Shown: positions 10,577 through 62,476 of the stretch, one piece after another
Layout of the letters: every line of letters begins with the position of its first letter
How positions within the stretch are numbered: position 1 is the stretch's first letter
NCBI RefSeq assembly: GCF_027497355.1
Contig: NZ_CP114909.1
Span: 4,049,001-4,113,000 of the forward strand
Origin: Micromonospora sp. WMMA1947
GTDB lineage: Bacteria; Actinomycetota; Actinomycetes; Mycobacteriales; Micromonosporaceae
Direction: 5' to 3'
Length of the DNA: 64,000 nt
Made by a program: the position numbers and the translations under genes
The notes under the pieces: model-generated
Told to the model about the DNA's origin: nothing
The model's input: the letters and a program-made list of their open reading frames with translations, nothing else
Databases searched by the model: none

Positions 10577-10661
10577 GGTCGTTGCCACAGGTGACGGGGC
10601 AGTGGAGACGTTCGAGCTGACCTAGGGTGAGCCGGCACGCTCATCTATCGACAGGAATCTC

Positions 10662-11372: not shown

Positions 11373-11417
11373 TCAGCCGGAGTGCCGGCTCACGCCGACA
11401 ACTGCCGGAGGCGGCGA

Positions 11418-11468
11418 GTGGAACGTCATGGGTGTCAAACGGGCGTTTTGACACCCATGGCGTTCCAC
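11418..11468. terminator. Bidirectional terminator / repeated palindrome, copy 1
   Basis: Arms 11418-11439 and 11447-11468 pair over 22 bp with one G-U wobble, leaving a 7-base loop; core CATGGGTGTCAAA / TTTGACACCCATG. It sits between convergent genes (stops at 11372 and 11541). A close relative with the same arm sequence occurs at 63704-63756, also between convergent genes. Confidence 0.6.
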
Positions 11469-11484
11469 CCAACGGCCGAGCCCC

Positions 11485-11531
11485 GCGGCGGGGCGGGCAG
11501 CGCGGCGGGGCGGGCAGCGCGGCGGGGCGGG
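11485..11531. repeat. 17-bp tandem repeat
   Basis: The unit GCGGCGGGGCGGGCAGC occurs twice in full and a third time in part, immediately before the 3' end of the kinase gene. Pure GC except one base per unit; probably replication slippage. Confidence 0.6.
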
Positions 11532-11540
11532 GCGGGCGGG

Positions 11541-12539: not shown

Positions 12540-12586
12540 GCTGGTCCGCCGTGTCGCCGGACGCAAGATCGCGCCGGTGCGCCAGG

Positions 12587-12660
12587 TAACAGTTTGAAAA
12601 CTTCACCCACGCTCTTGACACGGAGGGGCCTTCAGTAAGAACTTTTACCACTAACAGTTA
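12587..12660. promoter_or_regulatory. Divergent regulatory region with repeated TAACAGTT boxes
   Basis: Between the kinase and the RpiR gene the direct repeat TAACAGTT occurs at 12587-12594 and 12652-12659, each within a palindrome: AGTTT-GA-AAACT (12591-12602) and TAAC-A-GTTA (12652-12660). A third imperfect palindrome, GTAAGAACTTTTAC, lies at 12635-12648. A -35-like TTGACA is at 12615-12620 facing the RpiR gene. I infer an operator region for the RpiR protein controlling both directions. Confidence 0.45.
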
Positions 12661-12687
12661 ACACTCTTTTCCGAAAGGCTTCCGCCG

Positions 12688-14381: not shown

Positions 14382-14404
14382 CCCGACCCACAAGGAGAGA
14401 CAAG

Positions 14405-15817: not shown

Positions 15818-15839
15818 TCACCGCGAGGAAGTGAGTCCA

Positions 15840-16781: not shown

Positions 16782-16794
16782 GGAGGTCTGGACG

Positions 16795-17745
16795 ATGAGC
16801 ACTGTGACCCACACCTCCGGTCCGGCCCGGTCCGACACGGCACCGCCGGACCGGCCGCCGGCGGACCGGCGGAACGTCGGCAACGGCTTCGGCGGCCGCA
16901 TCTTCAACGGTTTCTCGCACCTGTTCCTCGCGGTCTGGGCGATCATGGTGGTCTACCCGCTGCTGTGGGTGGTGATGTCGGCGCTCAAGACCGACTCGGA
17001 GGTGATCCGCGAACCGCTGTCGCTGATCCCCGACGCGTTGCAGTGGGACAACTTCGCCCGCGCCTGGACCGCCGGGATCGACAGCTTCTTCCTCAACACG
17101 CTGCTCGTGCTGGTGTTCAGCGTGACGCTGACGATGCTGCTCGGCTCGATGGCCGCGTACGCCCTGGCGCGCTACGAGTTCCGCGGCAACCGGCTGATCT
17201 ACTGGATGTTCCTGTCCGGGCTGACGCTGCCGATCTACCTGGCCGCGGTGCCGCTGTTCAAGGGCGTCTACAACACCGGCGTCAGCCTCCCGTTGCTCGG
17301 CCCGAACAAGCACCTCATGCTGATCCTGGTCTACGTGGCGTGGTCGCTGTCGTTCACGATCTTCTTCATGCACTCGTTCTTCCGGACGCTGCCCGACTCG
17401 ATCGCCGAGGCGGCCCAGGTCGACGGGGCGTCGCACACCCGCACGTTCTTCAGCGTGATGCTCCCGATGGCCAAGCCGGGCCTGATCAGCATCGGCATCT
17501 TCAACGTGCTCGGCCAGTGGAACCAGTGGTACCTGCCGACGCTGCTCATGCAGTCGGTGTCCGGCGAGCCGAAGAACCAGGTGATCGCCCAGGGGTTGAT
17601 CGAGCTGTCGGTCAACCAGGGCTACAAGTCGGACTGGTCCGGACTGTTCGCCGGGGTGACCATGGCGATGCTTCCGGTGCTGATCGTGTACATCGTCTTC
17701 CAGCGCCAGGTGCAGTCCGGCCTCACCGCCGGCGTCGGCAAGTAA
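16795..17745 (+). CDS. ngcG: Sugar ABC transporter permease (NgcG-like, set 2)
   Basis: A 316-residue MalG-type permease. ATG 16795 (MSTVTHTSG) is preceded by GAGGAGG at ideal spacing. An N-terminal hydrophilic tail of about 40 residues precedes six membrane segments (FLAVWAIMVVYPLLWVVMSA first). EAA loop AEAAQVDGASHTRTFFSVML; C-terminus VQSGLTAGVGK as in the set 1 protein. It is the last gene of the operon; a perfect palindrome follows 14 bases after the stop. Confidence 0.88.
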   Translation: MSTVTHTSGPARSDTAPPDRPPADRRNVGNGFGGRIFNGFSHLFLAVWAIMVVYPLLWVVMSALKTDSEVIREPLSLIPDALQWDNFARAWTAGIDSFFLNTLLVLVFSVTLTMLLGSMAAYALARYEFRGNRLIYWMFLSGLTLPIYLAAVPLFKGVYNTGVSLPLLGPNKHLMLILVYVAWSLSFTIFFMHSFFRTLPDSIAEAAQVDGASHTRTFFSVMLPMAKPGLISIGIFNVLGQWNQWYLPTLLMQSVSGEPKNQVIAQGLIELSVNQGYKSDWSGLFAGVTMAMLPVLIVYIVFQRQVQSGLTAGVGK

Positions 17746-17759
17746 CCCTCCGGGAGGTA

Positions 17760-17806
17760 AGGAAGGGCCCCTTGTTAACACCGGGTGTTAACAAGGGGCC
17801 CTTCCT
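17760..17806. repeat. Perfect 23-bp-arm palindrome (repeat/terminator)
   Basis: Arms 17760-17782 and 17784-17806 are exact reverse complements around a single G; each arm holds GGAAGGGCCCC next to a GTTAAC site. A degenerate extra arm (GTTAAGAGGGGGCCCTTCC) follows at about 17818-17836. It lies directly behind the ngcG stop. I recall near-identical palindromes as dispersed repeats in Micromonospora and Salinispora. It would form a very stable hairpin ending transcription of the ngc operon. Confidence 0.75.
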
Positions 17807-17879
17807 CTACCGCAGGCGTTAAGAGGGGGCCCTTCCTTCCCCGCGGAGCGTGTCGGGGGGAGGGGGCAGAATCACGTCC

Positions 17880-19553
17880 GTGCTGGTGGCGGTGGAGGCG
17901 GACGAGCGAGGCGGCGGCGTGCTGCAACCGCTGCGCGCCGACGGCACCCCGTCCGGCCCGCCCGAGGAGGTGGCCGACCTGGCCACCGCCGTCGCCGCCC
18001 GGGAGGCCGCCGGCCACCCCCGCTGGCTGTGGGCCGCCTGGGCCGGCGTCTACCCGGCGCTGCTGCGCGCCGGGGTGCGGCTCGACCGCTGCCACGACGT
18101 CGAGCTGACCGAGGCGCTCCTGCTCGGGCACGCCGGCCGGTGGGGCGAGCCCCGCGCGCTACCGGCCGCCTGGGCCCGGGTCACCGGCGCGCCGGTCCCG
18201 CCGGACCCGGCGCCCCGCCCGCCCGAGCCGCCGGGCCACGCCCAGGCCGCGCTGTTCGAGCCGCCGTCCGGCCCGCCCGGTCCGGGCATCACGGCGTTGA
18301 CCCGGGTGTACGCCGACCAGCTCGCCCGGATCGCCACGACCACCCACCCCGGCCGGTTCCGGCTGCTGGTGGCCGCCGAGTCGGCGGGCGCGCTGGTGGC
18401 GGCCGAGATGGGCGCGGCCGGGCTGCCGTGGCGCGCCGACGTGCACGACACGATTCTGGCCGGCCTGCTCGGCGAGCCGTCCCCGGTCGGCGGGCCGCCG
18501 CGCCGGCTGGCCGAGTTGCAGGCCCGGATCGCTGACGCGTTCGGCGTACGCCAGGTGCACGCCGACTCGCCCGCGGAGCTGTTGCGGGCGTTCGCCCGCG
18601 CGGGCGTGGACCTGCCGAACACGCGCGCCTGGGTGCTGCGCGGGGTGGAGCATCCGGCGGCGCCGCTGGTCCTGGAGTACAAGGAGCTGTACCGGATCTG
18701 GACGGCGCACGGCTGGGCCTGGCGCGACGCCTGGGTGTCCGGCGGCCGGTTCCACCCGGAGTACGTGCCGGGCGGCGTGGTCTCCGGCCGCTGGGCGACC
18801 CGGGGCGGCGGGGCGTTGCAGATTCCGAAGGTGATCCGGCGGGCGGTGGTGGCGGACCCGGGCTGGACGTTCGTGGTCGCCGACGCGGGCCAGCTCGAAC
18901 CGCGCGTGCTCGCGGCGGTCTCCGGCGACGAGCGGCTCGCCGCGGCGGGCGGTGCCGGTGACCTGTACGCCGCGCTGGCCCGGGACGCGTTCGCCGGTGA
19001 CCGGGCGAAGGCCAAGGTGGCCCTGCTCGGGGCGATGTACGGGCAGACCGGCGGGGCGGCCGTGCCGGCCCTGGCGGTGCTGCGGAAGAACTATCCGACC
19101 GCGTTCGGCTACGTGGAGGCGGCGGCCCGCACCGGTGAGGCGGGCGGGCTGGTCCGGTCGTGGTTGGGGCGCACCTGTCCGCCCGGGTCGGCGGGGTTCG
19201 CCGAGGGGGAGGAGGCGATGCCGGACGGCGGGGCCGATCCGCACAGCCCGTCGGCGCGGGCGGCCCGTTCACGTGGGCGTTTCACCCGCAACTTCGTCAT
19301 CCAGGCCACCGCCGCCGAGTGGGCCTCCACGCTGCTGGCGACGCTGCGTACCGAGCTGGCCGGCACGGAGGCGGAGCTGGTCTTCTTCCAGCACGACGAG
19401 GTGATGGTGCACTGCCCGGCCGGGCAGGCGGCGGCGGTCGCCGAGGCGGTCACCGCCGCCGGGGCGCGGGCCACAGGGCTGCTGTTCGGCGACACCCCGG
19501 TCCGGTTCCCGCTGGACCTGTCGTCAGTGGACTGCTACGCGGACGCGGCATAG
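17880..19553 (+). CDS. Bifunctional 3'-5' exonuclease/DNA polymerase family protein (family A)
   Basis: A roughly 557-residue PolA-like protein without a 5' nuclease domain. Polymerase motifs: A, VVADAGQLEPRVLAAVSGD; B, RAKAKVALLGAMYGQTGG; C, FFQHDEVMVHC, which keeps the catalytic His-Asp. The N-terminal third aligns with the exonuclease position but shows no clear Asp-x-Glu start, so proofreading may be lost. GTG 17880 lies seven bases after CAGAAT, consistent with a leaderless message; GTG 17850 is an alternative. Such proteins are widespread in actinobacteria and poorly studied; a role in repair synthesis is inference. Confidence 0.85.
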   Translation: MLVAVEADERGGGVLQPLRADGTPSGPPEEVADLATAVAAREAAGHPRWLWAAWAGVYPALLRAGVRLDRCHDVELTEALLLGHAGRWGEPRALPAAWARVTGAPVPPDPAPRPPEPPGHAQAALFEPPSGPPGPGITALTRVYADQLARIATTTHPGRFRLLVAAESAGALVAAEMGAAGLPWRADVHDTILAGLLGEPSPVGGPPRRLAELQARIADAFGVRQVHADSPAELLRAFARAGVDLPNTRAWVLRGVEHPAAPLVLEYKELYRIWTAHGWAWRDAWVSGGRFHPEYVPGGVVSGRWATRGGGALQIPKVIRRAVVADPGWTFVVADAGQLEPRVLAAVSGDERLAAAGGAGDLYAALARDAFAGDRAKAKVALLGAMYGQTGGAAVPALAVLRKNYPTAFGYVEAAARTGEAGGLVRSWLGRTCPPGSAGFAEGEEAMPDGGADPHSPSARAARSRGRFTRNFVIQATAAEWASTLLATLRTELAGTEAELVFFQHDEVMVHCPAGQAAAVAEAVTAAGARATGLLFGDTPVRFPLDLSSVDCYADAA

Positions 19554-19675
19554 TCACGCAAATTTCCGTTTTGCCCCGCTACCCGGTCCCGGCCGTGCTC
19601 GTTGGGCCCGGTGTGCGTACGACGGGACGGACCGGGCGGCTGTGCCCGGTCCGTCCCCTGATCGAGGGGGCACCG

Positions 19676-20287
19676 CTGAACCGGATCGCTGCAATGATCA
19701 TCGCCGCCGGTGGCGGCCGCCGCATCGGCGGACCCGAAGCGCTGCTGCACCAGGGCGAGAAGCCGCTGGTCAGCCAGATGATCGACACGATGGCCGAGGC
19801 GGGCTGCGCGCAGGTCGTGGTCGTCCTGGGCGCGGCGGCCGAGCAGGTGCGGCAGACCACCGACCTGACCGGCGCCACAGTGGTGGTCAACCGCGCGTGG
19901 GGCACCGGGGTGGGCTCCTCGATCCGGGCCGGGCTCGCCGCGCTCACCGACGACGACATCGAGGCGGTGGTCGTGGTGCCGGTGGACATGCCCGGGCTCA
20001 CCGCGACGGCGGTCCGCCGGGTGACCGCCCTGCCGTATCCGGACGTGCTGGTCTGCGCCACCTACGACGGGCTGCGCGGCTACCCGATGCTGTTCGGCCG
20101 CCGGCACTGGTCCGGCATCGCCACGCTCGCCAGCGCCGACGTCGGGGCCCGACCGTACCTGCTGGCGCACAAGGACCAGATCGTCGACATCGCCTGCGAC
20201 TCGGTGGCCGACGGCAGCCGGATCGACAGCCCGGAGCTGATGGCGCTCTACGGCCTGTCCATCCCCGAGCAACGCGTCGGCGCCTGA
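19676..20287 (+). CDS. MobA-like nucleotidyltransferase
   Basis: A roughly 203-residue NTP-transferase (MobA/MocA/GlmU fold) with the nucleotide-binding loop IIAAGGGRRIGGPEALL, the metal-binding VVVPVDMPGLT and the RGYPMLFGRRHW segment. MocA-type members make molybdopterin cytosine dinucleotide; no molybdoenzyme genes are nearby, so the substrate is open. The first ATG (19694) would begin inside the first beta-strand (it removes RIAA). The CTG at 19676 with GAGGGGG five bases upstream gives MNRIAAMIIAAGGG, which fits the family better and is chosen here. Confidence 0.8.
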   Translation: MNRIAAMIIAAGGGRRIGGPEALLHQGEKPLVSQMIDTMAEAGCAQVVVVLGAAAEQVRQTTDLTGATVVVNRAWGTGVGSSIRAGLAALTDDDIEAVVVVPVDMPGLTATAVRRVTALPYPDVLVCATYDGLRGYPMLFGRRHWSGIATLASADVGARPYLLAHKDQIVDIACDSVADGSRIDSPELMALYGLSIPEQRVGA

Positions 20288-20326
20288 GGCGCGCCGCTTG
20301 TCGGACCCGGGTGCCAGGATCGGACC

Positions 20327-20659
20327 GTGGCCTACGACGAGGACCTGGCGAACCGCGTACGCGAACGCCTCGGGGGTGAGCCCGGCATCACCGAGCGGCG
20401 CATGTTCGGCGGCCTGGCGATGATGCTGCGCGGCAACATGGCGGTGGTCGTGCGCGGCGCGGGCGGCCTGATGGTCCGGGTCGACCCGGCCGAGGCCGAA
20501 CGTGCCCTGGGCGAGCCCGGCGCCGAGGCGACAGTCATGCGGGGCCGGGAGATGCGCGGCTGGGTCACCGTGTCGCCGGCCGCCTGCGAGCGCGACGCCG
20601 ACCTGGCCCGCTGGGTCGACCGGGGCGTCCGCTACACGCGCGGCCTCCCGGCGAAGTAG
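20327..20659 (+). CDS. TfoX/Sxy N-terminal domain protein
   Basis: A 110-residue protein with the TfoX N-terminal domain pattern: ERRMFGGLAMMLRGNMAVVV, then the LMVRVDPAEAE and MRGREMRGWVTV strands. The domain occurs alone in many actinobacteria, where a competence role is not shown. GTG start with AGGATCG upstream. It stands alone between a nucleotidyltransferase and a VOC protein. Confidence 0.85.
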   Translation: MAYDEDLANRVRERLGGEPGITERRMFGGLAMMLRGNMAVVVRGAGGLMVRVDPAEAERALGEPGAEATVMRGREMRGWVTVSPAACERDADLARWVDRGVRYTRGLPAK

Positions 20660-20741
20660 CCCGCCCGGATATCCGGGTGCGCGACCCGGCCGCCCGTCCT
20701 ACGCTGCGGCCAGTCGGCAGCGGGGGATCGGAGACGGGCAG

Positions 20742-21458
20742 ATGGCGGTTCACCTCTACGCGGTCAGCCTCGACGCGGCCGACCCGCGCCGGCTCGCGCG
20801 GTTCTGGTCCGGCGTGCTGGGCCGGGAGATCTTTGACGACCCGCGCGAGGGCGTGGCGCTGGGCGGCGACGCACACAGCGACGTCCGCATCCGGTTCCTG
20901 CCCAGCGAGGCGCCCAAGACGGTGCAGAACCGCATCCACTTCGACCTGACGAGCGCGTCGCCGCAGGCCCAGCGGGAGACGGTCGACCGGGCGCTGGCAC
21001 TGGGCGGCCGGCACATCGACATCGGCCAGGGCCCGGACGACGACCAGGTGGTGCTCGCCGACCCCGAGGGCAACGAGCTCTGCGTCATCGGCGCGGGCAA
21101 CACCTTCCTCGCCGGCTGCGGCCCGCTCGGCGCGATCAACTGCGACGGCACCCGGGCGGCCGGCCTCTTCTGGACCGAGGCGCTGGGCTGGCCGCTGGTC
21201 TGGGACCAGGACGAGGAGACCGCGATCCAGTCGCCGCGCGGAGGCGCGAAGGTCACCTGGAGCGGCCCGCCGCTGATGCCCAGCGGCGGGCGGGACCGCG
21301 TACACCTGGACCTGGTCGCGGCCGGTGACCGGGGCGCGGAGGCCGACCGGCTGCTCGCGCTCGGCGCGACCCGGGTCGGCACGGGCCGGCACACCGCCGA
21401 CGACCTGGTGCTGGCCGATCCGGACGGCACCGAGTTCTGCCTGCTGACGGCCCGGTGA
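20742..21458 (+). CDS. VOC (glyoxalase-like) family protein, two domains
   Basis: A 238-residue protein made of two glyoxalase/bleomycin-resistance-like modules (residues about 3-115 and 122-236). Each has the DAADPRRLARFWSGVLG or DGTRAAGLFWTEALGWPL helix and a final beta-strand LADPEGNELCVI or LADPDGTEFCLL. Only some metal-ligand positions are evident (RIHFDL, DRVHLDL, Glu in the last strand). Substrate unknown. ATG 20742 begins exactly at the first strand; GGAG lies about ten bases upstream. Confidence 0.85.
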   Translation: MAVHLYAVSLDAADPRRLARFWSGVLGREIFDDPREGVALGGDAHSDVRIRFLPSEAPKTVQNRIHFDLTSASPQAQRETVDRALALGGRHIDIGQGPDDDQVVLADPEGNELCVIGAGNTFLAGCGPLGAINCDGTRAAGLFWTEALGWPLVWDQDEETAIQSPRGGAKVTWSGPPLMPSGGRDRVHLDLVAAGDRGAEADRLLALGATRVGTGRHTADDLVLADPDGTEFCLLTAR

Positions 21459-21491
21459 CGCGGGTACGGCCCCAGGGACCGCACCCGCGTC
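21457..21491. terminator. Bidirectional hairpin terminator
   Basis: GACGCGGGT (21457-21465) and ACCCGCGTC (21483-21491) form a perfect 9-bp stem between the convergent VOC and DUF4127 genes. The left arm begins inside the VOC stop codon. Confidence 0.55.
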
Positions 21492-21497
21492 GTCCGA

Positions 21498-23141
21498 TCA
21501 GCGCAGCCGCAGGCTCGGCTCCAGCATGACCTCGAACAGCCGGTCCCACGGCAGCTCGACCCGCACCGCGGTGACCCGGTTCAGCGTCGCGGTGAACGTC
21601 TTGCGTCCGCGTACCCCGAGCACCAGCTCGTGCCCGGCGAAGTGGTCGGCGAAGTACCGCTCGGTCAGCGGCACCAGCCGGTCGCGTACCCAGCCGTCGA
21701 AGTAGCGCTTCTGCTCGGCGGTCAGCGCCAGCGGATCCCAGCCCTGCGCGCGGGCGTGCGCGTACGCCTCGACCTGCACCACGTTCTTCCACGGGTCGTC
21801 CTTGACGAACCGGTAGAGCAGGCACTCGGCGTGCGCCTGGGCCGGCCCGCGCAGCTCCGGCACGCCGAAGCCGCTGCCGGACGAACGCAGGTACGCCCAC
21901 CGCGCGGTGCCGTGCGCGAGCGCCAGCCCGAGCGCGTTGCCGCCGGTGTTCCACCCCGAGTACGACAGCAGCGCCGGCAGGTCCAGGCGGGCCTCCATCC
22001 GGGACACCAGGTCGTGGTCGCCCTTGTTGACGATCAGCGGGTCCACCACGATCACCGGGGTGCCGGCGGCCAGCAGCTCACCGATGCGGCCGACGAACGC
22101 GTCCAGGTCGGCGGTCCGCTGCCCGGCCGTGGCCGAGGGGGTGTTCACCGCGAGGACGATGTCCGCGTCGCCGGTCACCACCCGGCCGCCCACCGAGGTG
22201 ACGTGCCGGCGGATGTTCTCCGCGAACGGGATGCCCTCCAGCGCGGCGGTCCAGCCCTCCCCGGACACCCCGGCGTACTCCACCCGGTAGGTGGGCGCGG
22301 CGCCGGCGGCGACGACCCGCGCGACGAGCAGCGCGTTGACCTCGTCGGCGCCGGGGAAGATCTCCACCCGGTCGCCGACGCCGAGCCGCGCCACCAGCGC
22401 CTCCAGCTCGACCCGCTCGGCGCGGGCCAGGCCGACCGGCGCGGTGTCGTCCTCGGAGAGCACCAGGTGGCTGATCGTCCCGTCCGCGACCCACTCCACC
22501 ATCAGCCGGTTGACCTGGTGGTTGCGTGCCCGCGCGGCCAGGTAGTCCTCGACCACGGCGTCCGGGATGCGCGCCCGCACGGCGTCGAGCTGGCCCCGCA
22601 GCGACTCCTGGCCCAGATTGACCACCTGGTCGTACAGCTTGGCCCACTGGACCAGCAGGTCACGGTAGTTGTCCAGATCGGTGCCGGTGCTGGTGATCGC
22701 GAGCCGCTGGATCGTGTCGTGCACCTCGATCACCGCGTCGGACCGGCGTGCGCGCAGCCGCCGGATCGCCTCCAGGTTGCGCAACGCGTCGGCCAGGGCC
22801 GGTGCGGCGGTACGCGAGGCGATCAGGCCCCCGTACGCCAGCATGCTCACCGAGATCACGTACCCGTCGACGCCGTCGACGCCGTCGAGCCAGCGGGCGA
22901 TGCCGGCACCGTCACCGGGGGTGAAGAAGCGGCCCAGCAGGTTCCGCGGCGGCAACAGCACCTCGGCGTCGGCGCTCGCACCGGTCATCTCCGCGCAGTA
23001 CGTGTTGACCGGCCGGTCGTCCAGCGGCACCAGCGCCACGCTCGGTCGCCGGCCGGCGGGCCGGGCGAAGGCGGGGCCGCCGAGGGCGACGGTGGCCAGG
23101 CCGGCCGCGCCGGTGGCCGCAAGAAGGGTTCTTCTCTTCAT
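21498..23141 (-). CDS. DUF4127 family exported protein
   Basis: A 547-residue protein of the DUF4127 family, function unknown. N-terminal signal-like segment MKRRTLLAATGAAGLATVAL with an AFARPA cleavage region. Family features: VALVPLDDRPVNTYCAEM at the start of the mature part, then LPPRNLLGRFFTPGD, the SMLAYGGLIASR segment, HLVLSEDDTAPVGLARAE, VNTPSATAGQ and YSGWNTGGNALGLALA. The many conserved Asp, Glu and Asn residues suggest an enzyme, probably on a carbohydrate. GGGAG precedes the ATG, which overlaps the epimerase stop by four bases. It is the last gene of the LacI-controlled amino-sugar operon; export implies action outside the membrane, before import. Confidence 0.85.
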   Translation of the reverse strand: MKRRTLLAATGAAGLATVALGGPAFARPAGRRPSVALVPLDDRPVNTYCAEMTGASADAEVLLPPRNLLGRFFTPGDGAGIARWLDGVDGVDGYVISVSMLAYGGLIASRTAAPALADALRNLEAIRRLRARRSDAVIEVHDTIQRLAITSTGTDLDNYRDLLVQWAKLYDQVVNLGQESLRGQLDAVRARIPDAVVEDYLAARARNHQVNRLMVEWVADGTISHLVLSEDDTAPVGLARAERVELEALVARLGVGDRVEIFPGADEVNALLVARVVAAGAAPTYRVEYAGVSGEGWTAALEGIPFAENIRRHVTSVGGRVVTGDADIVLAVNTPSATAGQRTADLDAFVGRIGELLAAGTPVIVVDPLIVNKGDHDLVSRMEARLDLPALLSYSGWNTGGNALGLALAHGTARWAYLRSSGSGFGVPELRGPAQAHAECLLYRFVKDDPWKNVVQVEAYAHARAQGWDPLALTAEQKRYFDGWVRDRLVPLTERYFADHFAGHELVLGVRGRKTFTATLNRVTAVRVELPWDRLFEVMLEPSLRLR

Positions 23142-23851
23142 CGATGCTCCCTTTTCTCCGGCACGCTCGCCGCCCGGGGGGTGGCCGGAACCAGCCGGCG
23201 GGTGATCCACAGCGGTGAGGTGACGGCGTTGCCCGTCACCACCGCGTGGGCGCCCGCCTCGAAGGCCCGGCTGATCTGCTCCGTGGTCCGGTAGCGCCCC
23301 TCGGCGATCACCGGTACGGGCAGCAGCGCGGCGAGTCGCGCCACGAGCCCGAGGTCGGGCCCGTCGATCGGTGGGCTGGCCGGCGTGTAGCCGGACAGCG
23401 TGGTGGCGACCGCGTCCGCGCCGGCCTCGACGGCGGCGACGCCTTCGGCCACAGTGGCGACGTCGGCCAGGACCAGCGCGTCGCTCTGCTCGTGTACGGC
23501 GCGGACGGTGTCGGCGAAGGTCCGGCCGTCGGGCCGGGGACGGTCGGTGGCGTCCACCGCCACGACGTGCGACCCGGCCCGCGCCGCCTCCAGCGCGTGC
23601 CCGGCGGTCGGGGTGATGAAGACGCCTCCCGTGCCGTGCTTGTACAACCCGATCACCGGAACGTCGACGGCGGCGCGTACCGCCCGCACGTCGTCGGGGC
23701 CGTTGACCCGGACCGCCACCGCACCGCCACGGACCACGGCGGCCGCCACGCGGGCCTGGACGTACGGGTCGCGCATCGGGTCGCCGGGGTCGTCGGGCAG
23801 GGGCTGGCAGGACACGACCAGCCCGCCGGCCAGATCGTCCAGGACACTCAC
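23138..23851 (-). CDS. nanE: N-acetylmannosamine-6-phosphate 2-epimerase
   Basis: A 237-residue TIM-barrel epimerase converting ManNAc-6-P to GlcNAc-6-P. Family motifs: GLVVSCQPLPDDP with MRDPYVQARVAAA, catalytic Lys71 in VIGLYKHG, AVDATDRPRPDG, LADVATVAEG, TLSGYTP and catalytic Glu184 in VIAEGRYRT; GAHAVVTGNAVTSPLWIT at the end. Length is normal for NanE. The start overlaps the ROK kinase stop and the stop overlaps the DUF4127 start (both ATGA). With the ROK kinase it should feed an N-acetylmannosamine unit into GlcNAc metabolism; no sialate lyase is present. Confidence 0.9.
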   Translation of the reverse strand: MSVLDDLAGGLVVSCQPLPDDPGDPMRDPYVQARVAAAVVRGGAVAVRVNGPDDVRAVRAAVDVPVIGLYKHGTGGVFITPTAGHALEAARAGSHVVAVDATDRPRPDGRTFADTVRAVHEQSDALVLADVATVAEGVAAVEAGADAVATTLSGYTPASPPIDGPDLGLVARLAALLPVPVIAEGRYRTTEQISRAFEAGAHAVVTGNAVTSPLWITRRLVPATPRAASVPEKREHR

Positions 23852-24768
23852 GTGCTTGTTCCTCCGTCGTGGTGGATCGGTGCGGTGGCGAACCGGGCGG
23901 CGCCGACCACCACCGCGTCGGCGCCCAGCGCCGCGGGAAGCAGCGGCACGTGTGCCCAGCCGCCGGGTAGCTCCGCCCGGTAGGCGGCCGTCGCGGCGGG
24001 GAGCACTGTGGCGGCGGCGCCGCCGGCGACCACCACCGCGTCCGGGTCGAGCAGGGCGACCAGCCCGGCCAGGGCCGCGCCGAGCGCGGCGCCGGCCCGG
24101 TCGACGACCTGCCGGGCGGCCGCGTCACCGGCCGCCGCGCGCCGCGCCACCTCCCGCCCGGTGACCGGGTCACCGCCGGTGAGCGCGTACGCGGCGGCGA
24201 GGCCGGTGCCGGAGGCGATCGCCTCCAGGTGCCCGTACCGGCCGCAGCCGCAGCGCAGCCGGTGCGCGCCCGGGACCGGCAGGTGCCCGAGCTGGCCGGC
24301 CGCGCCCCGGGCGCCGCTCACGACCTGCCCGGCGTTGACGATCGCGCCGCCCAGCCCGGTGCCGACGGCGGCCAGCAACACGTGCCCCCGGCCCCGTCCG
24401 GCGCCGGCCCAGCACTCGCCGAGCGCCGCCGCGGCGACGTCGTTGGTGACGCGCACCGACCGGCCCAGCCGCGCGGCCAGCTCGTCGGCGACCGGGGTGC
24501 CGGCCCATCCGGGCAGGCTGCCGGTCGCGTACCGGATGGCGCCGGTCGCCGGGTCGACGGTGCCCGCGGTGCCCACCCCGACCGGTTCGGGGCCGGCGGC
24601 GGCGAGCAGGTCCGTGGCCAGGCCGGCGGCGGTGTCGAGCACCGCGGCCGGCCCGCCGCGCGCGGGGGTGGTCGCCTCGCGGCGGTCGAGCACCCGCGCG
24701 CCGGGACCGACCAGGGCGACGGCGGTCTTGGTGCCGCCGATGTCGATCCCGACGACCGGCGCGGTCAT
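23848..24768 (-). CDS. ROK family sugar kinase (probable N-acetylmannosamine kinase)
   Basis: A 306-residue ROK kinase. ATP site VVGIDIGGTKTAVALVGPG, phosphate-2 LAAVGTGLGGAIV, catalytic-base region RVTNDVAAAALGE, a GQLGHLPV element, and the zinc motif CGCGRYGHLE, where the third cysteine of the usual CxCGxxGCxE is a histidine. Its position directly before nanE argues for ManNAc phosphorylation at O6; glucokinase or another hexose kinase cannot be excluded on motifs alone. ATG 24768 overlaps the permease stop by four bases. Confidence 0.85.
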   Translation of the reverse strand: MTAPVVGIDIGGTKTAVALVGPGARVLDRREATTPARGGPAAVLDTAAGLATDLLAAAGPEPVGVGTAGTVDPATGAIRYATGSLPGWAGTPVADELAARLGRSVRVTNDVAAAALGECWAGAGRGRGHVLLAAVGTGLGGAIVNAGQVVSGARGAAGQLGHLPVPGAHRLRCGCGRYGHLEAIASGTGLAAAYALTGGDPVTGREVARRAAAGDAAARQVVDRAGAALGAALAGLVALLDPDAVVVAGGAAATVLPAATAAYRAELPGGWAHVPLLPAALGADAVVVGAARFATAPIHHDGGTST

Positions 24769-25607
24769 CCCTTCAGACCGGTGTGCGCGAGGCCTTCGAC
24801 GAACTGCTTCTGCGCGATGACGAACACCGCCAGCACCGGCAGCGCGGTCATCGACGCCGCCGCGAGCTGGACATCCCACATCGGACCGCCGTATGCGTCG
24901 ACGAACTGGGTGAGCGCCTGCGGCAGGGTGAACTTCTCCGGCGAGGAGAGGAACACAATCGGTTCCAGGTACAGGTTCCAGCTGTGCAGGAACGTGAAGA
25001 TGGCCACCGCGCCGAGCGCGGGCCGGGACAGCGGAAGCGCGATCTTCCAGAACGTGGCGAAGCGTCCCAGCCCGTCGACCCGCGCCGCCTCCTCCAGTTC
25101 CCCGGGGAGGCTGATGAAGAACTGCCGCATGATGAACGTCGCCAGCACGCTCGGCGCCCCGAAGATCGGTACCAGGATCAGCGGCCAGTGGGTGTCGATC
25201 AGGTCGAGCTTGAAGAACATCTGGAACAGCGGCACGATCGTCACCTCGCTCGGGATGAGCAGGCCCGCGAGGACGACCAGGAACAGCACGTTCTGTCCCC
25301 GGAACCGGATCCGCGCGAACGCGTACCCGGCCAGCGACGCCACGGCCAGCGTGCCGACGGTGACCAGCAGCGCGATGTAGAGGCTGTTGAGGTACTGCTG
25401 CCCGAACGGCTGCAGCTCGAACACCCGCCGGTACGCGTCCAGCCGCGGATCGGTCGGCAGCAGCTGCGGCGGGAAGGAGAAGATGTCCGCCACCGGCTTC
25501 AGCGACGAGGTGACCATCCACCAGGTGGGGAACACGAACGGGACGGCCAGGACCATCAGCACCCCGTAAAGGACCAGCTTGGTCCGCCGGGACAGGTCAC
25601 GATTCAT
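24765..25607 (-). CDS. Carbohydrate ABC transporter permease (MalG type)
   Basis: A 280-residue permease with six membrane segments (LVLYGVLMVLAVPFVFPTWW first), EAA loop LEEAARVDGLGRFATFWKIA, and C-terminus EGLAHTGLKG, as in MsmG/LacG-type carbohydrate permeases. Its start lies 11 bases inside the end of the upstream MalF-type permease, so both are translated together. It should import the sugar handled by the ROK kinase and NanE. Confidence 0.9.
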   Translation of the reverse strand: MNRDLSRRTKLVLYGVLMVLAVPFVFPTWWMVTSSLKPVADIFSFPPQLLPTDPRLDAYRRVFELQPFGQQYLNSLYIALLVTVGTLAVASLAGYAFARIRFRGQNVLFLVVLAGLLIPSEVTIVPLFQMFFKLDLIDTHWPLILVPIFGAPSVLATFIMRQFFISLPGELEEAARVDGLGRFATFWKIALPLSRPALGAVAIFTFLHSWNLYLEPIVFLSSPEKFTLPQALTQFVDAYGGPMWDVQLAAASMTALPVLAVFVIAQKQFVEGLAHTGLKG

Positions 25608-26544
25608 GGAAGACCCACCTCTTGCGCATCTGCCACTGCAGCACTGTCAGCGCGAGCACGATGACGAACAGCAGGATCGACAGCGTGGCGCCGTAGCCGA
25701 AGTGATGGAACTGGAAGGCCTGCTGGTAGAGGTAGTAGACGAGCACCGTGGTCGAGGTGCCGGGCCCACCCTGGGTGAGCACCGCGATCTGCGCGAAGAC
25801 CTGCAGCGAGCCGACCACCGTGATGATCGACGTAAGCATGATCGTCGGGCTGATCAGCGGCACGGTGATCCGCCAGAACTGGCGCAGCCGGCTCGCGCCG
25901 TCGACCTCGGCGGCCTCGTACAGCTCGGCCGGCACACCCTGCAGGGCGGCCAGGAACAGCACCATGTTCAGGCCGACGTTCTTGAACACCTGCACGACGA
26001 TCACCGACAGCATCGCCGTGCCCTCGCCGCGCAGCCAGTTGGGGCCGTCGACGCCGATGGTGTCGAGCAGGCCGTTGATGCCGCCGTTGTCCTGCAGCAG
26101 GAAGCCCCAGACGATGGTCCACGCGACCAGCGAGACCACCACGGGGGAGAAGAACAGGGTGCGGAAGACGATGGTCCCGCGCAGCCTCTGGTTGAGCAGG
26201 ACGGCCAGCAGCAACGCCAGGCCGAGGTTGAACACGACCAGGCCGACCGAGAACAGGCCGGTCGACCGCAGCACCGGGCCCAGGTTGGGGTCGTCGGCCA
26301 GCGCGGCGTAGTTGTCGGTGCCGATGTAGTCGAAGCTGCCGGCCAGCACGTTCCACTCGTGGAGGCTGTACCAGACCACGAGGACCAGCGGCAGGATCAC
26401 GAAGACCACGCTGCCGAGCAGCTGCGGGGTGATGAACAGGTATCCGGTGAGCTGGTCCCGGCGGCGGGTGGTCCAGAACGGCCGGGCCCGGCCCGGGGCG
26501 GGCCCGGCAGCAGCCGGGCCCACCCTGGTGTCCGTCTGGGTCAT
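25597..26544 (-). CDS. Carbohydrate ABC transporter permease (MalF type)
   Basis: A 315-residue permease from ATG 26544 (MTQTDTRV), chosen because GAGG lies close upstream and the longer form would read into the binding-protein gene. Six membrane segments (YLFITPQLLGSVVFVILPLV first) and EAA loop LYEAAEVDGASRLRQFWRIT. The start is 11 bases downstream of the binding-protein stop. No ATPase is encoded in the operon. Confidence 0.9.
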   Translation of the reverse strand: MTQTDTRVGPAAAGPAPGRARPFWTTRRRDQLTGYLFITPQLLGSVVFVILPLVLVVWYSLHEWNVLAGSFDYIGTDNYAALADDPNLGPVLRSTGLFSVGLVVFNLGLALLLAVLLNQRLRGTIVFRTLFFSPVVVSLVAWTIVWGFLLQDNGGINGLLDTIGVDGPNWLRGEGTAMLSVIVVQVFKNVGLNMVLFLAALQGVPAELYEAAEVDGASRLRQFWRITVPLISPTIMLTSIITVVGSLQVFAQIAVLTQGGPGTSTTVLVYYLYQQAFQFHHFGYGATLSILLFVIVLALTVLQWQMRKRWVFHES

Positions 26545-26555
26545 GATCCTCGGCC

Positions 26556-27839
26556 CTACTTCGCCAGCAGCGGCTGGATCTTGGAGCAGACGCCGTCGAG
26601 TACGCCCTTGACGTCCGCGTCCGCCTTCCACAGCGGGTCGAGCGCGGCGCGCACCTGCTGGCTCAGCTCGGCCTGCCCGGAGTGGCTGGGCTTGACGGTG
26701 CCGTTGGTGATGCCGTCGATGACGACCTTCTGCAGCTGCTCCGGCTTGAGCTTCGGGTTCGTCTTCGCAAGCGTCTCGGCGGTCAGCTGGGACTGCCGCG
26801 GCGGCGGGAAGAACTGGGCCAGCTTCGCCGAGTTGGTGGGGTTGGTGAAGAAGGCCAGGAAGTCGGCGGCCTGCTCGGCGTGCGGGCTCTTCTTCATCAC
26901 GCCGATGCCGGCCTGGCCGACCACCGCGTACGGGCCCTTCGGGCCGGCCGGCAGCGGGACCAGGTCCCAGTCGAAGCCGTTCTCCTTCAGCAGCGAGGCA
27001 CGGGAGATCTGGGTGACGGTCATGGCGGCGTCACCGGCGAAGAAGTCGGCGGTCGTGCCCGGACCGGGCAGCGCCTTGCCGGTGAAGATCGCCTTGTGCA
27101 GCGTGGTCATCGCCTCGACCATCTCCGGGCTGTTGAACCCGCAGCTGCGGCCGTCCTCGCTCCACGCCTGGGCACCCCAGCCGGTCCAGAACGTGGCCAG
27201 GTTGTCCCAGCCCTTGTAGTCGAAGTCGCGGACCACGAGCCCGGCCTTGCCCGACTTCGCGGCGGTGGCGCCGGCCGCGGCGAGCGCGGTGTCCCAGGTC
27301 CACTGCCCGGCCGCGATCAGCTCGGCCGGGGTCTTCTGCCCGGCCTTCTTGAGCATGTCGTTGTTCACGAACACGCCGAACGGCGAGGTCGAGAACGGAT
27401 ACGCGAAGAGCTTCCCGTCGTTGCGCCAGAGCTTCAGCGTGGCGGGGGACAGGTCGTCGTACTGGTAGCCGTCGGCCTTCTTCAGCGTGTCGTCGAGCGG
27501 GCTCAGCGCGCCGGAGGCGACGAAGTCCGGTGCCGAGTTCTCGAAGATCCACGCGAGGTCCGGCGCGTTGCCGCCGGCGATCTGCGTGGTCAGCGTCGTG
27601 GTGTAGTTCTCGAACGGCAGCGGATCGAACTTGATCTCCGCGACGTCCGGGTTGTTCTTGCGGTACTCGTCGGCGATCTCGTTGAACAGCTTGAGGTGCG
27701 CCTCGTTCGCCGACCAGACGGTCATCCGCAGGCTCGCCGGACCGTCGTCCTTGGCGTCGCCGCCACCGCCGCAGGCGGTCAGGGCGAGCACACCGGTCAT
27801 GGCCGCCGTGACCAGGCCGGACAGTCTTCCGTATCTCAC
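26556..27839 (-). CDS. Extracellular solute-binding lipoprotein (family 1, carbohydrate)
   Basis: A 427-residue binding protein. Sec signal with lipobox LTAC (Cys23) followed by GGGGDAKDD. Mature part typical of MalE/UgpB-like proteins: LRMTVWSANEAHLKLFNEIA, APDLAWIFENSAPDFV, PFSTSPFGVFVNNDMLKKAG, FFAGDAAMTVTQ. GTG start with GAGGAG upstream, 21 bases after the FAD oxidoreductase stop. The ligand is unknown; the operon suggests an N-acetylated hexosamine or a saccharide or glycoside containing it. Not close to the NgcE proteins in this window. Confidence 0.88.
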   Translation of the reverse strand: MRYGRLSGLVTAAMTGVLALTACGGGGDAKDDGPASLRMTVWSANEAHLKLFNEIADEYRKNNPDVAEIKFDPLPFENYTTTLTTQIAGGNAPDLAWIFENSAPDFVASGALSPLDDTLKKADGYQYDDLSPATLKLWRNDGKLFAYPFSTSPFGVFVNNDMLKKAGQKTPAELIAAGQWTWDTALAAAGATAAKSGKAGLVVRDFDYKGWDNLATFWTGWGAQAWSEDGRSCGFNSPEMVEAMTTLHKAIFTGKALPGPGTTADFFAGDAAMTVTQISRASLLKENGFDWDLVPLPAGPKGPYAVVGQAGIGVMKKSPHAEQAADFLAFFTNPTNSAKLAQFFPPPRQSQLTAETLAKTNPKLKPEQLQKVVIDGITNGTVKPSHSGQAELSQQVRAALDPLWKADADVKGVLDGVCSKIQPLLAK

Positions 27840-27860
27840 TTTCTTCTCCTCACCGGGGGT

Positions 27861-29456
27861 TCAGTAGCCCGCGATCTGCGGCCAGCGGCATTCCACGCCG
27901 GCGGCCGAGATGCGGTCCGTGAATTCGGCCAGCAGGCGGGGGGTGCCGCGGACCGCGCGCGGGGACTCGCCCCGCGCAAGGCAGAAGTCGGCCAGCAGGC
28001 CGGCGACCTCACCGACGTTCCACTCGACCGGGTGCAGTCGGTAGCTGCCGTTGGTGATGTGCGTGGTACCGATGTTCTTGCCGGCCGGCAGCAGGTTCTC
28101 CATCCGCTGCGGGATGAGCGCGCCGAGCGGGATCTCGAACGGGCAGGAGCCGACGTCGATGTAGTTGTCGCCACCGGTCGACGGGTGCAGGTCGATGCGG
28201 TACATGCCGACGCCGATCGAGTCGGGGTAGCTCACCGCGCCGTGCTCGCCGCGTACGGCCAGGGAGAGGTCCTGCTCGACCACCGTGTACTCGGCGCGGA
28301 TGCGACGCGACTCCCGGATGTAGGGCGCCTGCGCCAGCCCGTCGGGGCTGCCGGTCACGTCGCCGCGCAGCCGCAGCCCCGGGTAGCCGGTGCCGCCGTC
28401 GGGGCGGGGCGCCTCGGTCTGCAGCCAGTACAGGACGGAGTACGACAGCTCGCGCGCCTGGGACAGGTGCCAGGACGCGTTCGGCACGTCGATGACCGGG
28501 CCCTCGAAATAGTCGATCATCGGCCAGTTGACGAGCGTGATGTCGCTGCCGTACGCGCCGTCGACGAAGTTGCGCCGCGCGGCGATGCGCCGGAACGTCC
28601 AAAGGTTGCCGTCGCCCGGGTTGAGCCGCTGGTCGGCGTTGACGCCCAGCGGGTCGTCGTCCGGGTTGGGGGTGAAGCTGCGCTCGACGATCTCCAGCGT
28701 GCGCGGGTGCGGCGACCGCCAGGACAGCAGCCGGTCGCCCCAGAAGTCCGGCTTGTAGTCGCGCCAGAAGTCGTAGCCGGCGGGCCGGTCGATGGTGTGG
28801 TCGCCGTCGACGTGGTCGAGTGCGAAGCAGACCGACACCGCCTGCATGTTCAGCGGCTGCGCCTCGGCGGGCGCGCTCGGCTCACCGGTCTGCGCCTGCG
28901 ACTCGAACCCGGTCACGTACTCGGTGCCGGTCAGCGGCAGCAGCTCACCGGTCTCGGTGGCGTCCAGGACGTACGGCGCCTCCACCTCGATCCGCTCGTC
29001 GCGGTCCCGGTGGACGAGCGTCACGCCGGTGACCCGGTCGCCGTCGGTCTCGGCCGCGACGGGCCGGTACGGCTGCAGCACCGTCAGCCGCCCGGACCCC
29101 CGGTACGGCGCGAGCATCTGCTCCAGGACGGCGACCGCGACCCGGGGCTCGTGGCAGAGCCGGCTCACCCAGCCGGCGCCCGGGTTCAGGTCGGTCCACG
29201 CCCGGGACCGCTCGGTCAGCGGGTAGTGGCGGCGGTAGTAGTCGCGGATGCCGTCGCGCAACTCCCGGTAGCTCGCGGTGGCGCCGAACTGCTCGATCCA
29301 GGAGTGCTCGTCCGGCGGGACCGCCTGGCTGGTGAGCTGCCCGCCGAGCCAGTCGAACTCCTCGGTCAGGATGACGGACCGGCCGGCACGGGCCGCGGCC
29401 AGCGCCGCGGCGACACCGCCCAGTCCGCCCCCGACGACGAGGACGTCCGCACGCAT
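27861..29456 (-). CDS. FAD-dependent oxidoreductase (PF12831-like)
   Basis: About 531 residues, cytosolic, no signal peptide. N-terminal dinucleotide site ADVLVVGGGLGGVAAALAAA with the following acidic strand end LTEEFDWLGGQLTSQ; a second flavin contact YVLDATETGELLPLTG; C-terminal NLLPAGKNIGTTHITNGSYR and HPVEWNVGEVAGLLADF, typical of the FAD_oxidored family. ATG 29456 is given; GTG 29465 has the better-spaced GGAAGGAAG and is equally possible. The gene follows the LacI regulator by about 40 bases and starts the catabolic part of the operon. The reaction is unknown; oxidation of a sugar hydroxyl or glycoside is my inference. Confidence 0.87.
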   Translation of the reverse strand: MRADVLVVGGGLGGVAAALAAARAGRSVILTEEFDWLGGQLTSQAVPPDEHSWIEQFGATASYRELRDGIRDYYRRHYPLTERSRAWTDLNPGAGWVSRLCHEPRVAVAVLEQMLAPYRGSGRLTVLQPYRPVAAETDGDRVTGVTLVHRDRDERIEVEAPYVLDATETGELLPLTGTEYVTGFESQAQTGEPSAPAEAQPLNMQAVSVCFALDHVDGDHTIDRPAGYDFWRDYKPDFWGDRLLSWRSPHPRTLEIVERSFTPNPDDDPLGVNADQRLNPGDGNLWTFRRIAARRNFVDGAYGSDITLVNWPMIDYFEGPVIDVPNASWHLSQARELSYSVLYWLQTEAPRPDGGTGYPGLRLRGDVTGSPDGLAQAPYIRESRRIRAEYTVVEQDLSLAVRGEHGAVSYPDSIGVGMYRIDLHPSTGGDNYIDVGSCPFEIPLGALIPQRMENLLPAGKNIGTTHITNGSYRLHPVEWNVGEVAGLLADFCLARGESPRAVRGTPRLLAEFTDRISAAGVECRWPQIAGY

Positions 29457-29459
29457 TAG
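29452..29459 (-). promoter_or_regulatory. Operator-like half-site over the FAD oxidoreductase start
   Basis: On the minus strand CTAATGCG spans the start codon and equals one half of the LacI operators at 30561-30780. The other half is absent, so this may be coincidence. Confidence 0.25.
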
Positions 29460-29496
29460 TACCACTTGCTTCCTTCCAGTTGCGCGGCCGGGCGTG

Positions 29497-30543
29497 TCAG
29501 CGCCGGTCGGCCGCCGATCCAGGGACGCCGAGGGTGTCGCCCTCGACGAGTTCGCAGGGCAGGAGCCGTTGCTGGAGGCCGCCGGCGCTGCCGTCGATGA
29601 CGCCGGTCAGCACCTCGACGGCCTGGCGGCCCATCTCCTCGCGCGGGATGCGGAACCCGGTGAACGTGATGTCGGTGGGCACCGGGACGGTCGGGTCGCC
29701 AAGGGTCACGACGGACAGGTCACTGGGCACCGTGAGCCCCTTGCGGCGGGCGGCCGCCTCGAGTGCCACGGCGGTGGCGAAGTCCTCCACGAAGGCGACG
29801 GTGCTGCCGTCGGCCCGCAGGTCGTCCACTGTGGCGTCGGCCGTCCCCGCCGTCGCGGTGATCTGGCGGGCGCTGTCCGCGCCGGTCGCGCCGGCGTGGA
29901 AACCGCTGCGCCGGTCGTGCGATGACTCGGCCGAGGTGCCCATGCCCACGTACGTCAGGCGCCGGTGTCCCAGCTCCACCGCCCGCTCGGCCAGCCGGTG
30001 GACCGCGCTGGCGTAGTCGGCGCCGACGTAGGGCACCGGGCCGCCGGCGTCGTCGCGGCGTCCGACGGCGACGTAGGGGAACCCGTCGCGATTGAGCCGG
30101 AGCAGCTCCGCGCCGTCGATCTCCCGGCCGAGCAGGATGCAGCCGTCGGCCAGCCGCAGCCGGTTGTCCTGGTGGAAGATGCGCCGCCGGCCGTCCACCA
30201 CCGGGGCGCTGGTGAACAGCAGCAGGTCGCAGCCGACCCGTTCGGCGTACTCCTCGATGCCGAGCAGGAACGGGTGAAAGAAGTCCCGGCTGCCGCTGGG
30301 GAAGGCCGGCTCGTAGGTGAAGACGCCGATGATCCGGTTGAACCCGGAGGCGAGGCGGCGGGCGGCCGGGTCGGCGGCGTATCCCGTCTCGGCGATGACC
30401 TGCAACACCCGGTCCCGTGTCTCCGGCGCGATTCGGACGTCGGCGTCGGTGCGGTTGTTGAGCACCAGCGACACGGTCGCCTGGCTGACGCCGGCCATGC
30501 GCGCGATGTCACGCTGGGTGACACGCCTGGGGGGAGGGGTCAC
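29497..30543 (-). CDS. LacI family transcriptional regulator
   Basis: A 348-residue LacI/GalR repressor. HTH and hinge: VTQRDIARMAGVSQATVSLV, then LNNRTDADVRIAPETRDRVL and AADPAARRLASGFNRIIGVF. The C-terminal periplasmic-binding-like domain (about residues 68-335) has YVGADYASAVHRLAERAVEL, GHRRLTYVGM and the TDITFTGFRIPREEMG signature. It is the first gene of an eight-gene operon running to 21498 and is separated from the next gene by only 31-40 bases, so it is autoregulated through the three palindromes immediately upstream. The effector is probably the imported sugar or its phosphate. Confidence 0.92.
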   Translation of the reverse strand: MTPPPRRVTQRDIARMAGVSQATVSLVLNNRTDADVRIAPETRDRVLQVIAETGYAADPAARRLASGFNRIIGVFTYEPAFPSGSRDFFHPFLLGIEEYAERVGCDLLLFTSAPVVDGRRRIFHQDNRLRLADGCILLGREIDGAELLRLNRDGFPYVAVGRRDDAGGPVPYVGADYASAVHRLAERAVELGHRRLTYVGMGTSAESSHDRRSGFHAGATGADSARQITATAGTADATVDDLRADGSTVAFVEDFATAVALEAAARRKGLTVPSDLSVVTLGDPTVPVPTDITFTGFRIPREEMGRQAVEVLTGVIDGSAGGLQQRLLPCELVEGDTLGVPGSAADRR

Positions 30544-30560: not shown

Positions 30561-30578
30561 CGCTAATGCGTATTAGCG
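30561..30578. promoter_or_regulatory. LacI-type operator O1
   Basis: CGCTAATGCGTATTAGCG, an 18-bp palindrome with one mismatched base pair, 18 bases upstream of the lacI-type start codon. It matches O3 except at one base. Confidence 0.75.
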
Positions 30579-30660: not shown

Positions 30661-30678
30661 ATGTAATGCGGATTAGCA
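30661..30678. promoter_or_regulatory. LacI-type operator O2 (degenerate)
   Basis: ATGTAATGCGGATTAGCA keeps the TAATGCG and ATTAGC cores of O1 and O3 but has lost outer symmetry. It lies 100 bp from both other sites, centre to centre. Confidence 0.6.
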
Positions 30679-30762: not shown

Positions 30763-30780
30763 CGCTAATGCGCATTAGCG
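30763..30780. promoter_or_regulatory. LacI-type operator O3
   Basis: CGCTAATGCGCATTAGCG, a perfect 18-bp palindrome, farthest from the operon. The spacing of O1, O2 and O3 (about 100 and 102 bp) suits DNA looping by a tetramer or two dimers. A -35-like TTGACA facing the operon is at 30623-30618. Confidence 0.75.
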
Positions 30781-62467: not shown

Positions 62468-62476
62468 GTGGTAGCA

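Follow-up and report, generated by a model that had tools for sequence, protein, structure and literature searches.

An operon of eight genes in the soil actinobacterium Micromonospora sp. WMMA1947 brings together a protein of family DUF4127 (PF13552), an FAD-dependent oxidoreductase of family PF12831 (FADox), a CUT1-type importer, a ROK sugar kinase and NanE, the 2-epimerase of N-acetylmannosamine 6-phosphate (ManNAc-6-P). It lies in a window of 64,000 nucleotides, by which we mean the whole stretch analysed (4,049,001-4,113,000 of one contig 6.31 Mb long), and we read it, with a probability of about 0.45, as a LacI-controlled route for scavenging a glycoside that yields N-acetylmannosamine (ManNAc), an amino-sugar glycoside pathway not previously described. 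The sequence shows one regulon that holds FADox, importer, ROK kinase, NanE and DUF4127. The association of DUF4127 with FADox and NanE is strong, and represents a real, regulated and widely recurring partnership that is new in its parts list. From these observations we infer that the substrate contains ManNAc, that DUF4127 cleaves and FADox oxidises it, and in what order the steps follow.

The operon and its genes

All eight genes lie on the minus strand within 21498-30543, in the order given by a first-pass annotation made from the sequence alone: LacI, PF12831, solute-binding protein (SBP), two permeases, ROK, NanE and DUF4127. The LacI-family regulator (29497-30543; Pfam LacI and Peripla_BP_3) has an uncertain start codon, a start-picking script favouring 30498. 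FADox (27861-29465) matches PF12831 over residues 7-506 with 357 bits against a gathering score of 27, covering positions 1-408 of the 416 in the profile; this is the only full-profile match in the genome, the 24 further matches (25 places in total) being short, at most 145 of 416 positions. The CUT1-type SBP (26556-27839; SBP_bac_8, 120 bits) carries the lipobox LTAC, read by eye, and the two ATP-binding cassette (ABC) permeases, both matching BPD_transp_1, are of the MalF/UgpA type (25597-26544; UgpA-like in NCBIfam, under the cut-off) and the MalG/UgpE type (24765-25607; GlcU/UgpE-like in NCBIfam, under the cut-off). The ROK kinase (23848-24768; ROK, 180 bits), NanE (23138-23851) and a DUF4127 protein of 547 aa (21498-23141) complete the operon. 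Neighbouring genes share 4 bp at three of the junctions and 11 bp at a fourth.

NanE passes its family cut-offs (PF04131, 150 bits; NF002231, 236 bits against 189), and R48, K71, D130 and E184, which we take to be the catalytic residues, are invariant across 8 NanE sequences and were aligned to PDB 4utt; we therefore accept its membership of the family. The neighbouring ROK gene probably encodes a ManNAc kinase. The DUF4127 gene, a single copy in the genome, encodes a protein 98% identical to those of Micromonospora aurantiaca and M. chalcea, which matches PF13552 with 450 bits (gathering score 27) over positions 1-488 of 489 and begins with an RR-type signal sequence recognised by eye and by an N-terminal motif script. 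Sialate lyase, deacetylase, deaminase and ATPase are absent from the operon, as had been claimed, and a MalK-type ATPase, nagA and SIS genes are present elsewhere in the genome.

Operators and a relocated DUF4127 gene

The operators, through a relocated DUF4127 gene described below, supply the strongest single argument for counting DUF4127 as part of this system. About 20 bp before lacI lies CTAATRCGYATTAG (30563-30576), followed by an incompletely palindromic copy, CTAATCCGCATTA (30664-30676), and by a palindromic site, CTAATGCGCATTAG (30765-30778), none of them being assigned to a strand. The pattern CTAATNCGCATTA has three copies here (30564-30576, 30664-30676 and 30765-30777) and, with one mismatch allowed, all five of its matches in the genome fall at the operon promoter (palindromic sites count on both strands), against 0 and 1 matches for the reversed pattern. 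A stricter palindrome, CTAATNCGYATTAG, occurs at 2 sites in the window genome and, in six further Micromonospora genomes, at 2 or 3 sites per genome, its reversed control giving 0 in all seven. Twelve Micromonospora loci (L009-L012, L014-L021) have sites between lacI and a divergent gene for a secreted protein, c12, whereas a search of the less closely related loci L022-L029 found no operator site.

In two Micromonospora species (L013, L055) a solitary DUF4127 gene is preceded by one operator site, and the other sites of these genomes lie at a lacI-FADox-SBP-permease-permease-ROK-NanE operon without DUF4127, with c12 again divergent. Because the relocated gene keeps its operator, which gene order cannot explain, DUF4127 is best regarded as part of the system. 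Near the operon of one genome with a relocated DUF4127 there is also a GH38-type gene (L152, 2620-5382). Separately, one Micromonospora genome has the operon split inside a permease gene between two contigs (L008 and L154), by either rearrangement or an assembly fault.

Neighbourhoods of DUF4127 across genomes

The sample of loci that we surveyed is not random. A scan of named genomes, of which 80 of 229 loci were kept, is biased to the window-like type because it was seeded with window-like DUF4127. Draws from the phylum (DUF4127 in 7 of 396 actinobacterial genomes, our own included), from family f40, which we guess to be Coriobacteriia (5 of 65), and from two classes (4 of 296 and 9 of 66) added five, four and six loci respectively, and plasmid records added six of nine, giving with the window itself a total of 102. 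Two loci without a 400-residue domain were left out, namely L129 (short, with none of the partner genes) and L064, where DUF4127 (9935-11569) is broken into several frames beside c4, permease and FADox genes that look whole; counts therefore cover 100 loci and 106 domains of at least 400 residues. Among the 100 are L054, a 5 kb contig without partners that is outside the 26 Bacillota loci discussed below, and L026 and L062, which overlap on one contig; L087-L099, L107-L110, L115-L123, L136-L151, L155, L156, G129 and plasmid hits H4, H5 and H6 stand outside the context set. Neighbours within 9 kb were identified with phmmer, the queries being proteins from the window and from annotated loci, and a tree was built from 68 DUF4127 domains under 80% identity. 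In a search with a cytoplasmic member, the family numbered at least 2371 proteins at E 0.001 among 8000 candidates scored.

The first-pass annotation had stated that rare co-occurrence of DUF4127 and the oxidoreductase with NanE/ROK genes elsewhere would refute its proposal, and the survey speaks against such rarity. In this biased sample, the window included, PF12831 was near DUF4127 in 61 of 100 loci, NanE in 34 and both in 26, with the set FADox, NanE, ROK and permease in 21. The protein c4 occurred in 36 loci, c12 in 17, phosphotransferase system (PTS) genes in 8, a HyuA-type hydrolase in 7 and GH38 in 6; as controls, NagA was found in 0 and DapA in 1. Counted over the 68 domains, FADox had 34 occurrences, NanE 20, c4 21, NanE or c4 40, and ABC permease or PTS 38, the NagA and DapA controls (two genes of the window genome) both giving 0. 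SIS genes proved unsuitable as a control and were set aside, since DUF4127 has a related SIS gene in its vicinity in L046, L103 and L105, and another one in L124. A chance neighbourhood was rejected on these context counts; the single copy of DUF4127, the lone full-length PF12831 match and the recurrence of the arrangement elsewhere likewise speak against chance.

The proposed link of DUF4127 with PF12831 and NanE recurs, but some sets lack NanE. Among 33 window-like actinobacterial loci, FADox was present in 27, NanE in 22 and ROK in 20; the exceptions include L013 and L055, where the remaining genes are elsewhere, L008 (FADox on the other contig, L154), L024 (cut by a contig end), L025 (only a shortened NanE) and L056 (neither FADox nor NanE). 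In the loci from Georgenia, Oceanitalea, Occultella and Ruania (L026-L028, L059, L061-L063, L065) no NanE gene was found in the neighbourhood of DUF4127. In 26 Bacillota loci with an exported DUF4127, PF12831 and c4 were each present in all 26 and NanE in one; here the place of NanE and ROK is taken by c4, which is modelled as a TrpA-like barrel, a fold grouped broadly with the phosphate-binding barrels to which NanE belongs. In the tree NanE accompanies DUF4127 in well separated places: the window clade, the f47/f16 class, the PTS clade and, at a distance of 7 kb, a single Acidobacterium (L068).

Further gene sets vary in composition. The five loci of the phylum draw other than our own genome include three with NanE (L102, L103, L105) and two with FADox (L103, L105); the sequence of L104 stops just past DUF4127, and L106 has neither gene. 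In the class of G151 (f47, f16), 5 of 8 loci read permease-permease-(ROK)-DUF4127-FADox-NanE-GH38, L104 again being cut and L133 and L134 having none of these. All five loci of family f40 have PTS IIC, HAD, DUF4127 and SGNH hydrolase genes, three have IIA and IIB and two an adjacent NanE, and Carnobacterium and Enterococcus plasmids carry NanE-HAD-DUF4127-PTS IIC. A row in Priestia comprises ABC, FADox, GH38, ROK, esterase, DUF4127, ROK, manA, PTS IIC and NanE; Deinococcus sp. KNUC1210 has NagZ, SBP, a GH20-like gene, ABC, FADox and DUF4127; and three Streptomyces have GH20 after DUF4127. None of the partner genes was found in the Alkaliphilus and D. ficus plasmid loci. The secreted protein c12, with at most a weak match to GH43, lies near DUF4127 in two phyla (L009-L012, L014-L021, L058, L027, L062, L048, L050, L064).

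Of the six non-redundant PTS loci, only that of Priestia was found to have FADox, and FADox occurs without an ABC permease only in L043, L047, L051 and L135, all of which have HyuA. FADox thus pairs with non-phosphorylating transporters, which would fit action on the free sugar. The HyuA-type hydrolase, with permease c13, lies near DUF4127 in L043, L047, L051, L068, L079, L085 and L135, four of the seven also having c4 and FADox. One locus, L036, has two DUF4127 genes, with its NanE and c4 going with different copies; the second copy of this Neobacillus (12060-21545) is accompanied by NanE, AP_endonuc_2, ABC, Antibiotic_NAT, Gfo/Idh and ROK genes, a set resembling keto-sugar pathways. This Gfo/Idh and AP_endonuc_2 pair is the sole hint of keto chemistry that we encountered, and the keto intermediate suggested in the first-pass annotation is, like its substrate, hypothetical.

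As a side observation, DUF4127 occurs with c4 in Zipacnadia and other loci of metagenome-assembled genomes (L067, L069, L070, L077, L078, L081, L083, L084), and a PGM-like metalloenzyme is also present in five of these (L069, L070, L077, L081, L084).

A proposed pathway and the role of DUF4127

Under the reading that we prefer, a route to ManNAc, the exported DUF4127 protein would cleave the glycoside outside the cell, with help in relatives from a GH20 enzyme or a secreted beta-propeller resembling GH43, and the importer, powered by a shared MsiK-type ATPase, would bring the product in. A MalK/MsiK-type ATPase encoded in the window (405 aa open reading frame, 62468-63685, plus strand; PF17912 match at genome 4112182-4112337) could energise the transporter. 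FADox would then oxidise the still unphosphorylated sugar or a remaining substituent, the ROK kinase would produce ManNAc-6-P, and NanE would convert this to N-acetylglucosamine 6-phosphate (GlcNAc-6-P), which NagA and a SIS deaminase, encoded elsewhere, would feed to glycolysis. GlcNAc-6-P is probably usable, given that nagA lies with ROK and SIS genes at 2.39 Mb, and the exit through ManNAc-6-P without nanA in the operon, as originally proposed, is supported. In PTS lineages the sugar would be phosphorylated on entry, with DUF4127 acting in the cytoplasm at the position expected of a 6-phospho-glycosidase.

DUF4127 probably frees the sugar, and two lines of evidence point this way. Chitobiose and cellobiose PTS operons are expected to contain a 6-phospho-glycosidase; the f40 locus L102 shares with them Lac/Cel-type IIA, IIB and IIC and a PRD regulator, and has DUF4127 and NanE at the place of that enzyme, which argues for cleavage by DUF4127 in the lactose/cellobiose-type PTS operons of f40. 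Moreover, the protein is often exported in ABC operons, is wall-anchored in the relatives P0056 and P0066 (these carry PF00746, which we take to be a wall-anchor domain), and stands beside other glycosidases, namely GH20 in Streptomyces, NagZ and a GH20-like gene in Deinococcus, and GH38 in f47/f16 and Priestia. The claim that DUF4127 is exported holds for the window copy, which has a signal-like N-terminus, and does not hold in general: the motif script found no signal stretch in L036 copy 2, L102-L105, L111-L114, L124, L125, L128 and L132, and in L130 and L131, where its motif did not match, the protein may or may not be exported.

Structure prediction, which the first-pass annotation had looked to for DUF4127, yields a confident model (pLDDT 92.2, pTM 0.90, with residues 1-28 under 50) with two Rossmann-like lobes plus a C-terminal part made of helices and beta structure, although two fold-search programs listed no convincing structural match (50 matches listed by either). 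D41, R43, R110, R146, R204, D232, D266, D367 and W397 are kept in at least 95% of the 68 sequences, and this conservation makes them candidate active-site residues. A bolder extension, which we consider doubtful, is that DUF4127 founds a new class of enzymes cleaving amino-sugar glycosides, perhaps with an unsolved fold. Such enzymes would act extracellularly where the transporter is of the ABC type and on 6-phosphorylated sugars where it is a PTS, and together with PF12831 would make up a flavin-assisted pathway to ManNAc that extends over Actinomycetota, Bacillota and Deinococcota and includes gut bacteria.

Several observations weigh against our reading. FADox, NanE, c4, permease, PTS and HyuA are all missing near DUF4127 in 16 of 100 loci and 15 of 68 domains, such partnerless loci including L106, L127, L133, L134 and L074-L076, and the coupling to DUF4127 is tighter for FADox than for NanE. 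Even among the 33 window-like actinobacterial loci NanE was not found nearby in 11; two of these have it elsewhere, and for the other nine the survey covered the neighbourhoods. PF13552 is the sole Pfam match of the window protein at E 0.001, with no catalytic glycoside hydrolase (GH) domain, and with no convincing structural match either, the case for cleavage is drawn entirely from gene context. The sugar of the ROK kinase is not settled by NCBIfam, in which every kinase match is under its cut-off (PRK05082, 128 against 283; NF047821, 109 against 450). The Priestia PTS is annotated as maltose/glucose-specific, which weakens the PTS argument, and L114 has a GH1-looking gene (by eye) and another PTS IIC about 6 kb off, past opposite-strand genes. 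Finally, HyuA, found in 7 of 100 loci and often with a non-ABC permease, is not what a simple glycosidase would predict. Together with the NanE-free sets of Georgenia, Occultella and Ruania, the HyuA sets argue that the shared job of DUF4127 and FADox is wider than ManNAc.

Alternative explanations

An unlikely alternative, though one to be taken seriously, is that DUF4127 and FADox act on a substituent of the amino sugar (a lactam, ether, acyl or lactyl group) and not on the glycosidic bond, with c12, GH20 and GH38 cutting the glycan and ROK and NanE taking the stripped ManNAc. The ATP-dependent hydrolase of HyuA type in 7 of 100 loci is consistent with this, as is the presence of SGNH or AXE1 esterases with glycosidases in the same gene sets, and the near-invariant R43, R110, R146 and R204 could bind an anionic group. 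However, no HyuA was found in the other 93 loci, and in L102, the sole PTS operon scanned gene by gene, no phospho-glycosidase was found beside DUF4127.

Distinctly less probable is that DUF4127 performs chemistry at C2, such that a GlcNAc glycoside is cleaved by elimination or epimerised, ManNAc is produced, and NanE returns GlcNAc-6-P. Neighbouring GH20, GH3 NagZ, GH89 and GH38 genes suggest GlcNAc/Man glycans over ManNAc polymers, and the two Rossmann-like lobes of the DUF4127 model are shared by many sugar epimerases. Neither fold-search program has a UDP-GlcNAc 2-epimerase in its list of 50 matches, a result which excludes nothing.

We regard an ordinary sialate pathway, with nanA elsewhere, as very improbable. 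The genome has a DapA/NanA-like gene at 5.61 Mb (L100, 5605000-5622000), in a locus with ROK, NanE, an AXE1 esterase and a different ABC importer, and the ROK and NanE of the operon are paralogous to those of this sialate-type locus (48% and 57% identical). As in a canonical sialate (nan) operon, a ROK-type kinase gene and nanE are adjacent in the window; however, the NanA that such an operon has in its locus or regulon was not found in the operon, at the nanA cut-off anywhere in the genome, or by the operator search. No gene passes that cut-off, the two DapA-type matches scoring 116 and 82 bits against 382 (the second DapA-type gene is at 0.44 Mb), and a DapA-type gene is near DUF4127 in 1 of 100 loci. 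Moreover, the DapA/NanA-like locus has its own ROK, NanE and transporter, and the operator, with one mismatch allowed, was not found there. A distant nanA under the same operators, which the first-pass annotation had named as the other finding that would undo its proposal, was therefore rejected: with one mismatch allowed, the operator was found only at the operon promoter, and the nanA-like gene sits in a separate locus.

That the genes merely travel together by shared descent, with DUF4127 a passenger, is scarcely credible, even though many loci come from closely related Micromonospora or Bacillus strains and two of them, L026 and L062, overlap. Several phyla differ in gene order, in transporter and in PF12831 subfamily, and the relocated DUF4127 keeps its operator.

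Relation to described systems

The binding lipoprotein and two permeases of the window operon are like those of actinobacterial CUT1-MsiK amino-sugar operons such as NgcEFG, which use a shared ATPase; DUF4127, PF12831, ROK and NanE are additions to that set. Among oxidoreductases of amino-sugar use, NanOx, the 2,7-anhydro-Neu5Ac oxidoreductase, is of the Gfo/Idh-type family, and FADox does not share this NAD-dependent type, matching PF12831 instead. Sialate catabolism with NanOx (RgNanOx/NanY) combines an importer, an oxidoreductase working through a keto intermediate, and NanK with NanE to give GlcNAc-6-P; its oxidoreductase uses NAD and NanA makes the ManNAc, whereas the window operon has a PF12831 flavoprotein, no NanA, and DUF4127 in addition (PMC7535918). 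Oxidative deglycosylation in soil bacteria by glycoside 3-oxidases of the GMC superfamily (PMC10646112), along with related chemistry in the levoglucosan pathway (PMC7676230) and an O-glycoside eliminase (PMC10628242), shares with our reading the principle that sugar oxidation enables later bond cleavage. PF12831 is not named in the accessible part of PMC10646112, nor were DUF4127 or NanE seen in those parts of this literature that were available.

Within the open-licence PMC literature, DUF4127 is named nowhere, nothing was found for an acetylmannosaminidase or mannosaminidase, and PF12831 appears in one paper, on a Brucella flavoproteome. The same searches returned no described pathway with this gene set, in agreement with what had been proposed. 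That these partners recur across bacterial groups suggests that amino-sugar glycans are used as food in a manner not yet described, and the regulon and operon evidence makes a widespread DUF4127 a testable enzyme with few candidate substrates and partners, in both soil and lactic bacteria. If our reading is true, PF12831 flavoproteins would gain a physiological context in amino-sugar use, and NanE genes without a nearby nanA would be explained.

A neighbouring gene set

On the plus strand of the window, 4 kb from the operon, a further set of genes (12688-17745) encodes an RpiR regulator, a SIS_2 protein, a binding lipoprotein and two permease-like open reading frames, and is perhaps another amino-sugar import cluster.

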